Shown here piece after piece: positions 698 to 4,541 of a stretch of DNA of 26,533 nucleotides. The stretch is from a virus. The notes under the pieces were generated by a model. It was not told the DNA's origin. It searched no databases and worked only from the letters and a program-made list of their open reading frames with translations. The position numbers and the translations under genes were made by a program. The stretch lies in IMG/VR virus record IMGVR_UViG_3300042888_000896, positions 1 to 26,533 of that record, one strand, 5' to 3'. The number at the start of each line of letters is the position of its first letter. Position 1 is the stretch's first letter.

Positions 698-723
698 ATC
701 CTATCATGGACCACTGACAAATT
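698..723 (-). promoter_or_regulatory. AATTTGTCAG element + extended -10 (copy A)
   Basis: On the minus strand AATTTGTCAG (714-723) is followed, 11 bases after its TTGTCA core, by TGA-TAGGAT (698-706). Two further copies with the same geometry are at 1984-2009 (minus) and 2404-2429 (plus), each ahead of a cluster of small genes. The 11-bp spacing is too short for a normal -35/-10 pair, so the TTGTCA part may be an operator or activator site rather than a -35 box. Confidence 0.5.
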
Positions 724-736
724 GGGGCACTTATTC

Positions 737-780
737 GCTAGGCTCACTGTGATACTCGTCACATTTATTTGCTAGGCTCA
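737..780. repeat. Direct repeat GCTAGGCTCA x2
   Basis: GCTAGGCTCA occurs at 737-746 and again at 771-780, a 34-bp offset or about three helical turns, with similar flanks on both sides (TTC/TTT before, CTG/TTG after). Between them lies GTGA-N6-TCAC (748-761), an inverted repeat. The pair sits between two stacked leftward promoters, so it may be a regulator binding site; this is inference. Confidence 0.4.
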
Positions 781-785
781 TTGCC

Positions 786-845
786 TTGTCTGTCCTTATT
801 TAATTGTTATACTAGAAGTATAGCAAGAAAATGTCAAAAAGTCAA
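786..845. promoter_or_regulatory. Overlapping divergent promoters around a -10 palindrome
   Basis: Minus strand: TTGACT (840-845), 17-bp spacer, TGC-TATACT (817-825), predicted start near 810, reading into the 65-aa gene at 664. Plus strand: TTGTCT (786-791), 16-bp spacer, TGT-TATACT (805-813), predicted start near 820. The two -10 boxes form a palindrome (TATACT-AGA-AGTATA). The minus promoter shares TTGACTTTTTGACATTT with the plus-strand promoter at 2164-2192. No convincing gene lies downstream of the plus promoter, so it may make a non-coding or regulatory transcript, or be inactive. Confidence 0.6.
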
Positions 846-1026
846 ATCCTGTCTCGGCGTGTCGTGTGTTAGTTACATCACATCTATCCTGTGGATAAGC
901 CTGTGGATAACTTTTGTCGAAAATTTTTCAGGGGATCATCCTGAAAAACTTATTATTGCTTATGCTCCGTTATGTAACCAAACTACAATTGCAAACGAAG
1001 TCATTGCGATTAGAATAACTAACAAT
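846..1026. other. Gene-free control region with two DnaA-box sequences
   Basis: With the promoters above, this belongs to a gene-free stretch at 665-1026. It contains CGGCGTGTCGT (855-865) and ACATCACATC, both also present at 2100-2165. It also holds a tandem 12-bp repeat CCTGTGGATAA(G/C) at 888-911 containing two perfect DnaA-box sequences (TTATCCACA on the minus strand, at 890-898 and 902-910), and a terminator-like hairpin. One open frame (769-1050, plus) crosses it, but it lacks an SD and looks like chance. This could be a replication origin or a DnaA-responsive control region. Confidence 0.5.
924..948. terminator. Terminator-like hairpin after the leftward small-gene operon
   Basis: A perfect 9-bp inverted repeat, TTTTTCAGG (924-932) and CCTGAAAAA (940-948), with a 7-nt loop. 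On the minus strand the stem is followed by TTTT. It lies about 80 bp beyond the last gene of the operon that starts at 1927, a fitting place for transcription to end. Its A/T arms also make it possible in the other direction. Confidence 0.5.
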
Positions 1027-1116
1027 TTATTTCTCCTCAATTTCATTTAACAATTCCCAAAGTATTGGTTCTAATTCTTTAGAAACTAAATCTAATTTTT
1101 CCTGAAGTGTTTTCAT
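1027..1116 (-). CDS. Tiny protein, 29 aa, last gene of operon
   Basis: Encodes a 29-residue acidic helical peptide (MKTLQEKLDLVSKELEPILW...). The start overlaps the stop of the 49-aa gene by ATGA, the same coupling used elsewhere in this operon, which is the main reason to accept so short a gene. No family recognised. It could form a short coiled coil (leucines spaced in heptads), but this is too short to be sure. Confidence 0.5.
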   Translation of the reverse strand: MKTLQEKLDLVSKELEPILWELLNEIEEK

Positions 1117-1262
1117 TGTGTAGCCTCCTCTACTAGAAATGCGTCAAACTTAGAAAGTTCACTTTCGCTAAGTGGCATTAGTGATTTATTAAGTGCGAAT
1201 ACTGCTCGCATTTCGTCCTCTGCTTCTACCGCATAAGAGATAAGTACATTGTATTTAGTCAT
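1113..1262 (-). CDS. Hypothetical protein, 49 aa
   Basis: Begins MTKYNVLISYAVEAEDEMRA and ends in an acidic tail. The pattern of a short beta strand followed by 'A.EAEDE..A' resembles that of the 45-aa protein encoded just upstream (FELFVDVEADDFESALSWL), so the two may be distant paralogues with the same small alpha/beta fold. A GAGG 8-9 bases before the ATG is a weak SD, and the gene starts 3 bases after the preceding stop. No known function. Confidence 0.6.
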   Translation of the reverse strand: MTKYNVLISYAVEAEDEMRAVFALNKSLMPLSESELSKFDAFLVEEATQ

Positions 1263-1265
1263 TAG

Positions 1266-1403
1266 TTAAGCCTCAATTTCTCTATAGTCAATAACATGAA
1301 AGTCTAACTGTCTCTCTAGTGGCATAGCCTTTAGCCATGATAGAGCAGACTCAAAATCATCTGCCTCTACATCAACGAATAACTCAAAATTAAAAATAGG
1401 CAT
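1266..1403 (-). CDS. Hypothetical protein, 45 aa
   Basis: Sequence begins MPIFNFELFVDVEADDFESA and is acidic, with a beta strand followed by a helix. AGGAG lies about 10 bases before the ATG, and the gene starts 4 bases after the stop of the 54-aa gene. The strand-helix pattern is like that of the adjacent 49-aa protein. No family recognised. Confidence 0.6.
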   Translation of the reverse strand: MPIFNFELFVDVEADDFESALSWLKAMPLERQLDFHVIDYREIEA

Positions 1404-1407
1404 TTAG

Positions 1408-1572
1408 TTATTCTCCTTTCTTGTATAGAAAATCCCAAGCCTTACGGCATAACACAATTGATTTGCAATTGTCACAACAGATAACCCCATGAGGGTTAAG
1501 GTCTAGGTCATACACATCTACGCTTGCAGATGTTGCCCCACATACTGAGGCGAGATTTACATAGGTACTCAT
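1408..1572 (-). CDS. Small Cys-rich protein, 54 aa
   Basis: Starts MSTYVNLASVCGATSASVDV and carries C11, a CCDNC motif at 31-35 (C31, C32, C35) and C41. The layout could bind zinc or mimic a rubredoxin-like knuckle, but the spacing does not match a family I can name. The start overlaps the preceding stop (ATGA). It follows two other genes with paired cysteines, so this operon is enriched in small putative metal-binding proteins. Confidence 0.65.
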   Translation of the reverse strand: MSTYVNLASVCGATSASVDVYDLDLNPHGVICCDNCKSIVLCRKAWDFLYKKGE

Positions 1573-1751
1573 TTCTTGAGTCCTTCCTTTCCATAGGTAT
1601 TGATAAAATCGGGGAGAGCCATAACGCCCTTGTAGTCCTTACACGCTGGGCAAAATCTATTCCACCCGTCAAATAGTGTAATGCAGAAAGCGCAAATGTT
1701 ATCCATAGCGCATAGACCTTGCTCGTCTATAAATTGCATAGTGTCAATCAC
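1569..1751 (-). CDS. Small zinc-ribbon-like protein, about 60 aa
   Basis: Contains ICAFC and FCPAC separated by about 11 residues, a CxxC...CxxC zinc-ribbon arrangement. The GTG at 1751 overlaps the upstream stop (GTGA) and fits the coupling seen in this operon. An ATG four codons further in (1739) is the alternative start. The C-terminal part (DFINTYGKEGLKK) is basic. Zinc binding is inference from the cysteines; the target is unknown. Confidence 0.65.
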   Translation of the reverse strand: MIDTMQFIDEQGLCAMDNICAFCITLFDGWNRFCPACKDYKGVMALPDFINTYGKEGLKK

Positions 1752-1927
1752 TTAGACACCTTCCAATCTGTCCACATAGGTAGACGCTCAGGGTCGGTAT
1801 CATCATACCAACGCTCAATGTTCTGCTCACAATCTGTGCAGAAAGTAAATTGGTCATCACCAATTTCTGAGATAGCGGAATACTGAGGATTATGCTCAGT
1901 GCATTTTGTTATTTCTAATGTAGTCAT
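1748..1927 (-). CDS. Small Cys-containing protein, 59 aa, first gene of operon
   Basis: Begins MTTLEITKCTEHNPQYSAIS. C9, H12 and the later FCTDCEQNIERW (C30, C33) give a CxxH...CxxC set suited to binding one zinc ion. Its end is rich in Trp and acidic residues (WYDDTDPERLPMWTDW). AAAGGTGG is a clear SD. The AATTTGTCAG/TGCTACAAT promoter at 1984-2009 gives a leader of about 50 nt. It heads a six-gene leftward operon of very small genes. Confidence 0.7.
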   Translation of the reverse strand: MTTLEITKCTEHNPQYSAISEIGDDQFTFCTDCEQNIERWYDDTDPERLPMWTDWKVSK

Positions 1928-1983
1928 TTATGACCACCTTTCTTTAGCGGATTTCTTTACCGCTTGTTTTTCTTTATACTGTA

Positions 1984-2009
1984 ATTGTAGCAGGGGGGTC
2001 TGACAAATT
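1984..2009 (-). promoter_or_regulatory. AATTTGTCAG element + extended -10 (copy B)
   Basis: Minus strand: AATTTGTCAG (2000-2009), then exactly 11 bp after its TTGTCA core comes TGC-TACAAT (1984-1992). Predicted start is about 1977, 50 nt before the first ATG of the leftward operon at 1927. The spacing equals that of the copies at 698-723 and 2404-2429. A second TTTGTC lies a little further upstream. Confidence 0.6.
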
Positions 2010-2163
2010 GGAGGGGACAAATGGTATCAATTCGGACATTGTGACTCACCTCACATGAGATGTAGGTCACATAGGTTATCCACACATGAATGGTCAGACC
2101 TGTGGATAACTTTTTTTCGATCCCCTTGTGACGGACATCACATCCAGAACACGGCGTGTCGTC

Positions 2164-2192
2164 TTGACTTTTTGACATTTCTCTGTTATACT
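2164..2192 (+). promoter_or_regulatory. Strong sigma70-type promoter, extended -10
   Basis: TTGACT (2164-2169), a 17-bp spacer and TGT-TATACT (2184-2192); a TTGACA lies at 2172-2177 within the spacer. The sequence TTGACTTTTTGACATTT is repeated in the minus-strand promoter at 817-845. Predicted start is near 2199, 43 nt before the 38-aa gene at 2242. Confidence 0.75.
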
Positions 2193-2241
2193 TGCAGTAT
2201 TAGATAGTTAAAATCTAACTACTAAACGAAAGGTCACTAAC

Positions 2242-2358
2242 ATGAACCCATTTACAGCCCTTATTGACTGGTTAGACGAGAACGCAGACTATGCCCCTAT
2301 CGGAGCCTTTATAGGCTTAGGCATAGCAATAGCCCTAGCCTTTGCCTTTGGAGCGTGA
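2242..2358 (+). CDS. Small membrane protein, 38 aa
   Basis: Encodes a 38-residue peptide with an acidic N-terminal third (LIDWLDENADYAP) and a single hydrophobic Gly/Ala-rich helix from about residue 19 to the end (IGAFIGLGIAIALAFAFGA). It probably inserts in the membrane with the N-terminus outside the lipid. GAAAGGT 10 bases upstream is the SD. It is directly behind the strongest promoter in this part of the window, so expression is likely high. Role unknown; superinfection exclusion or membrane modulation are guesses. Confidence 0.65.
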   Translation: MNPFTALIDWLDENADYAPIGAFIGLGIAIALAFAFGA

Positions 2359-2403
2359 CCTAAATCACAAAAATAGTTTTGCGACACGCCCGAAAAACAG
2401 GCT

Positions 2404-2429
2404 AATTTGTCAGTCCCCTATGATAGACT
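2404..2429 (+). promoter_or_regulatory. AATTTGTCAG element + extended -10 (copy C)
   Basis: AATTTGTCAG (2404-2413) with TGA-TAGACT (2421-2429) 11 bp beyond the TTGTCA core. Predicted start is near 2436, ahead of the 57-aa gene at 2464. Just upstream (2380-2392) is GCGACACGCC, the reverse complement of the GGCGTGTCG motif found near the other early promoters. A TATAAA follows 22 bp after TTGTCA, as in copy B. Confidence 0.55.
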
Positions 2430-3102: not shown

Positions 3103-3243
3103 ATGGCTATACTAGATAACGTAGACAACGATACATATCCATTATTTGAGACAGAATCATCTTCTCTGGCTATAAAGGTTTTTTCAGAAATATGTTGCAA
3201 TGGATGTTCTTGCAAATCTGAATCAGATCACAAACCAGAATAA
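3103..3243 (+). CDS. Small Cys-rich protein, 46 aa
   Basis: Encodes MAILDNVDNDTYPLFETESS... with a C-terminal cysteine cluster CCNGCSC (residues 33-39). The cluster might bind zinc or an Fe-S centre. No SD precedes it; the TATAAT at 3091-3096 would make the mRNA begin at the start codon. It converges with the leftward gene ending at 3298. No family recognised. Confidence 0.55.
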   Translation: MAILDNVDNDTYPLFETESSSLAIKVFSEICCNGCSCKSESDHKPE

Positions 3244-4463: not shown

Positions 4464-4541
4464 TATGTTGTCAGGGGGAGGTTTGTATACTCTATTTTCG
4501 GCTTAACTCGTATCCCGCCGAATTTTAAAATAAATATAATG

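Follow-up and report, generated by a model that had tools for sequence, protein, structure and literature searches.

A composite promoter class of freshwater, presumably actinobacterial, phages with a TGTCAG box in place of the -35 element and an upstream CRP-type palindrome

The T4 middle promoters replace the -35 element by a MotA box, WWWTGCTTtA, at 12 ± 1 bp from the -10, and half of them carry TGn, according to the portion of the account drawn on here (PMC2988021). The actinobacterial regulators CRP-Mt and GlxR bind a TGTGA-N6-TCACA consensus (PMC5449483). The cluster A mycobacteriophages have operators and stoperators that are asymmetric and direction-dependent sites at early promoters (PMC9283540). 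In phage T1, cAMP-CRP represses the promoters of pir, dam and recE (PMC6737242).

Here, we analyzed a virus record from IMG/VR in which features of these systems appear together. The window is the whole linear record of 26,533 bases with 36.9% GC. Three sites in it are copies of a composite promoter shared across a large group of tailed phages from freshwater that presumably infect actinobacteria. We hold it as nearly certain that such a promoter class exists, and no earlier description of it was found in the literature searched.

The window contains exactly three copies of AATTTGTCAG, two on the minus strand and one on the plus strand (Table 1), where 0.19 are expected, and three copies are reached in none of 100 dinucleotide shuffles. 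The gapped core TGTCAG-N7-TGNTANNNT also occurs three times, always at the AATTTGTCAG sites, versus 0.03 expected and with 0/100 shuffles reaching three. At every site TTGTCA and the -10 hexamer are 11 bp apart, and downstream is a small ORF preceded by a ribosome-binding site. Hence, the copies, their positions, this spacing and the location upstream of three small-gene operons are all as the original prediction from the window had them.

Two other assignments fail. TTGTCA is not the -35 of a downstream -10, because no downstream hexamer is conserved across the sites. A supposed weaker relative at 4468-4491 has no support as a member of the family either, as it has no TG, is spaced by 8 bp and not 7, and is found upstream of neither of the two homologous genes compared (in G006 and G008).

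Table 1. Predicted promoter features and associated small genes in the window
Feature	Position	Strand	Basis or remark
Site A box AATTTGTCAG (predicted -32 to -23)	714..723	-	Pattern count; conserved 5' of homologues
Site A extended -10, TGATAGGAT	698..706	-	Pattern match and profile of relatives' copies
Site A CRP-type palindrome TGTGATACTCGTCACA, centre -64.5	748..763	.	Perfect TGTGA-N6-TCACA; distance as in relatives
Site A small gene, 65 aa	467..664	-	Homologues in 75 viral loci
Second promoter of site A gene, sigma70-type TTGACT-17-TATACT	817..845	-	
One-mismatch CRP-type site, centred at -64.5 of the 817-845 promoter	867..882		
Site B box AATTTGTCAG	2000..2009	-	Pattern count; conserved 5' of homologues
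Site B extended -10, TGCTACAAT	1984..1992	-	Pattern match
Site B CRP-type palindrome TGTGACTCACCTCACA, centre -70.5 (off-phase class)	2040..2055	.	
Site B small gene, 59 aa, heading a run of small minus-strand genes	1748..1927	-	
CRP-type palindrome TGTGACGGACATCACA, centred at -64.5 of the 2164-2192 promoter	2127..2142	.	
Box-less sigma70-type promoter TTGACT-17-TATACT	2164..2192	+	5' of a 38-aa membrane-type peptide (2242-2358)
Site C CRP-type palindrome CGTGACCTAAATCACA, one mismatch, centre -74.5	2354..2369	.	Same module at -74.5 in relatives
Site C box AATTTGTCAG	2404..2413	+	Pattern count
Site C extended -10, TGATAGACT	2421..2429	+	Pattern match
Site C small gene, 57 aa	2464..2637	+	

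Relatives were collected by searching IMG/VR with the proteins of site A (75 loci) and site B (80 loci), giving 155 loci and 1.63 Mb. The element is kept 5' of many homologues of both genes, and the linkers and leaders drift. Across the 155 loci, TGTCAG lies 7 bp from TGNTANNNT in 454 distinct copies versus 0-3 copies at any other spacing, and most scrambled cores have almost no matches at the same spacing. The consensus is AA(AA/TT)TGTCAG-N7-TGNTANNNT, and a profile of 467 copies reads A-A-(A/T)-(A/T)-TGTCAG-(T/A)-C-rich-TG-N-TA-N-(A/G)-(A/C)-T-(T/A).

Positions -36 to -33 of this profile favor no base. A -35 is therefore lacking, as was predicted, and the box promoters fall outside the ordinary sigma70 definition of a -35 hexamer 16-18 bp from the -10. 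Of about 1000 copies, 876 have AA or TT at positions -30/-29. The full AATTTGTCAG, which had been taken as the element, is indeed shared by the three sites but is one common form among the copies in the relatives, where AAAATGTCAG is as common; what is conserved is TGTCAG after AA or TT. A TG-less variant with TANNNT at the same distance adds about 180 further copies.

The copies are placed like promoters of small genes. In 463 of 472 cases, a ribosome-binding site and an ORF come next, and these ORFs belong to about 37 unrelated small-protein families. Twelve relatives of 98-119 kb have 4-10 boxes each, nearly all within one small-gene region, and the reversed control pattern is absent from these 12. 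Another 20 large records have 2-14 boxes each. Even G013, a 109-kb contig whose proteins mostly share 30-55% identity with those of G006, keeps the box and the extended -10, with the C-rich stretch usually lost. Absence from relatives would have told against the original prediction; instead, the element is found in nearly all relatives examined, within the small-gene cluster and at an invariant spacing.

An assumption-free search for hexamers enriched upstream of TGNTANNNT gives the same box. TGTCAG at N7 ranks among the top three in all six box phages and first in four, mostly accompanied by TTGACA/TTTGAC at the normal -35 distance. In Streptomyces phage Muntaha (Stanwilliamsviridae) this search returns TTGACA and nothing else, and in the metagenome-assembled Dishui Lake phage DSL-LC01 it returns a different element. 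The control-region DNA has no useful similarity to that of named phages.

The box might be the operator of a phage repressor on an extended -10 promoter that fires unless the repressor is present. It is asymmetric, always oriented with transcription and overlaps the core promoter, and an extended -10 can suffice for a promoter that has no -35. Being asymmetric and direction-dependent, it is like the cluster A operators, and repressors of L5 type bind as monomers to sites that are asymmetric (PMC9283540). However, stoperator-type sites also occupy short intergenic gaps off promoters, and no such enrichment is seen here. TGTCAG totals 935, of which 608 have TANNNT at the fixed distance, and the remaining 327 are at background (permutation median 393). 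Moreover, an operator could sit anywhere on the core, whereas the single invariant spacing to the -10 and the lost -35 fit a box that helps initiation. We regard a repressor operator as unlikely.

The second component is a CRP-type palindrome. Perfect TGTGA-N6-TCACA occurs three times in the window (748-763, 2040-2055 and 2127-2142), all in these control regions, versus 0.09 expected and with 0/100 shuffles reaching three. The one-mismatch palindrome of site C shares bases with the end of the 38-aa ORF before it. In the relatives, 812 palindromes have N6 versus 0-14 at other half-site spacings. About two thirds of the boxes (311/465) have a CRP-type site with at most one mismatch at -50 to -100, as compared with 34/465 in a control stretch, and about one third have none. 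The original prediction of an operator or activator site built into a promoter family and coordinating three operons was right in kind, the box being a conserved promoter component, but it missed the CRP-type site.

With the -10 hexamer numbered -12 to -7, the palindrome centres fall at -54.5, -64.5, -74.5, -85 and -95.5. One widespread module, that of site B, is an exception at -69.5/-70.5, where the phase is off by half a turn. The vector strength is 0.66-0.69 at a period of about 10-10.5 bp for 22 linker modules (39 in a larger set) and is reached by 0/20,000 random sets, although the modules are mosaic and partly related so that the counts are not fully independent, and at a looser clustering threshold almost all of them merge and the test has no power. 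Judging from the centres, the CRP-type sites would mostly lie on one helix face. Relative to the E. coli CRP series at -61.5/-71.5, the centres here are shifted upstream by about 3 bp.

Box-less TTGAC-17/18-TANANT promoters occur in these phages as well. A CRP-type site of at most one mismatch accompanies 85 of these, in 77 cases centred at exactly -64.5 or -74.5, and both sigma70-type promoters of the window have theirs at -64.5. As the distance from the CRP-type site to the -10 is equal with a -35 or with a box, the geometry appears set by the polymerase, with TGNTANNNT as the -10 and the box replacing the -35. This arrangement is like the class I CRP/GlxR promoters in that the palindrome is upstream of the polymerase site in one-turn steps, except for the -70 module. 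What sets it apart is that a phage genome carries it, that most promoters of a single region have it, and that a box replacing the -35 accompanies it.

The palindromes could instead repress, in which case the small genes would be turned on when host cAMP falls and the box promoter would be constitutive. The T1 promoters are a precedent for such repression and resemble the present ones as phage promoters that would read host CRP. Nonetheless, the sites here lie upstream of the polymerase core footprint and at phased class I positions in both promoter types, and repression by CRP seems improbable to us. The T1 promoters also differ in that no -35-replacing box is described for them (PMC6737242).

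Our best reading, which we consider probable, is that these are composite promoters where host CRP acts in a class-I-like manner on RNA polymerase and a factor reads the box in the -30 region. Its two parts differ in strength. The CRP-type regulation is likely, while an activating factor that replaces the -35 contact is favored by a little over even odds.

In such a promoter, as the sequences show, the extended -10 TGNTANNNT lacks a -35 and has the box AA(AA/TT)TGTCAG at about -32 to -23 and at the invariant distance. A host protein of CRP/GlxR type would bind the palindrome and, in class I geometry, contact the alpha C-terminal domain to recruit the polymerase of the host. A second factor, encoded by the phage or the host, would read the box in a MotA-like manner in place of the contact between sigma region 4 and the -35. 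Each genome would then have about 4-12 small-gene promoters that fire together and answer to both the host cAMP/nutrient state and the box factor. This suggests that the small genes of these viruses are tied to the metabolic state of the cell.

The closest parallel is T4. Like its middle promoters, the phage promoter family here has an A/T-led box of about 10 bp that starts with WWTG in place of the -35, an extended TGn -10 and a near-fixed spacing. Unlike them, it has a TGTCAG core and not TGCTTtA, 10 bp and not 12 ± 1 bp between the box end and the -10 hexamer, and an upstream CRP-type site that has no counterpart in the portion of the T4 middle-promoter account drawn on here (PMC2988021). 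No MotA or AsiA homologue is identified in the present phages. The T4 parallel would therefore be one of resemblance in mechanism, not of membership.

Alternatively, the host RNA polymerase might read the box directly without any separate factor, either by an alternative sigma or as a spacer or shape element (A-tract plus TGTCAG) with helpers of RbpA/CarD type. The AA or TT at -30/-29 suggests shape readout, and the phages encode no convincing sigma, having no sigma region 4 above the cut-off and a sub-threshold HTH match only. However, by established sigma geometry, the 10 bp that separate the box from the -10 hexamer leave too little room for a sigma -35 contact. Also, the composite pattern has only five matches in an 84,980-species host genome collection, all of them on MAG contigs of implausible host groups, so it is not a general host promoter type. 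The one match examined, the cyanobacterial-labelled L283/G013 (contig 31), is phage. We give direct reading by the polymerase little chance and keep to the reading with a separate box factor.

The gene contents bear on the candidate readers. None of the 12 large relatives has a CRP-family HTH gene; thus a phage-encoded CRP is rejected, and the palindrome-binding protein is presumably the CRP of the host, whose cAMP dependence here we infer. For the box, 11/12 and 17/20 box phages carry a WhiB gene, and WhiB as the sole factor is rejected by its absence from G027 (11 boxes), G011, G032 and G035, contigs that may be incomplete. A 52-aa HTH protein is present in 20/20 box phages and absent from the two single-hit records, and it is rejected as the sole factor by a homologue in phage Muntaha, which has no box at all. 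A 46-aa basic ORF common to the box phages was dropped as a candidate: it shares bases with a box, and part of its conservation is therefore that of promoter sequence.

Tentatively, and with somewhat less than an even chance, these phages may be an actinophage lineage with its own sigma appropriation. A WhiB-like or small HTH factor of the phage would take the -35 contact over at the TGTCAG boxes with host CRP as co-activator, and the genes would be gated jointly by infection and cAMP.

The actinobacterial affinity comes from three protein matches. Among 14 control genomes, Corynebacterium alone has WhiB, the ribonucleotide reductase is 61% identical to that of Mycobacterium phage Gaia, and the portal protein is about 45% identical to those of Streptomyces phages. 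The host is presumably actinobacterial, and the freshwater Nanopelagicales are plausible hosts. As to the five matches in the host collection, their contigs (L279-L283) are in MAGs labelled Phycisphaerae, Pseudomonadota, Hungatella, Chitinophagales and cyanobacterium, and probably are mis-binned phage.

The composite promoter would be a regulatory code of abundant uncultured freshwater phages that is statistically very strong and readable from sequence alone. It offers a direct route to listing co-regulated small genes, which are probably for host takeover. It predicts that the infection outcome depends on host CRP/cAMP, and it would make a non-enteric parallel to the T4 sigma appropriation.

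Several other features were seen in the control regions. The CRP-type site, linker and box seem to move as modules between unrelated small genes (e.g. L124-L197 for the site A region and L199-L276 for the site B region). In one such module, GAGCCTAGC(A/G)AATAA repeats flank the site A palindrome. The spacer TTTTGACATTT is common to both sigma70-type promoters of the window (817-845 on the minus and 2164-2192 on the plus strand) and conserved in 39/93 such promoters. Its complement, AAATGTCA, is similar to the box in the opposite orientation.

Phage DSL-LC01 (L284, OQ999401) has 25 copies of CTAAAG-N-TGNTANNNT, mostly as GATTCTAAAG, many of them just 5' of genes. This is another phage-specific promoter-like family without a -35, and the box phages have one copy of it or none.

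Four perfect DnaA boxes, TTATCCACA, form two pairs in the control regions of the window (890-898 and 902-910; 2076-2084 and 2101-2109). The relatives have 303 distinct copies of it versus 3-51 for scrambled 9-mers. A DnaA-dependent origin or DnaA-regulated promoters are possible explanations.

On the structural side, the genes at 3103, 4557, 5122 and 5625 of the window have a TATAAT-like -10 just 6-9 nt before the ATG. In G004, 12/105 ORFs follow such a near-ATG -10, none does at a control offset, and the signal is weaker in G006. This placement suggests that the structural-side genes may be expressed from leaderless mRNAs.
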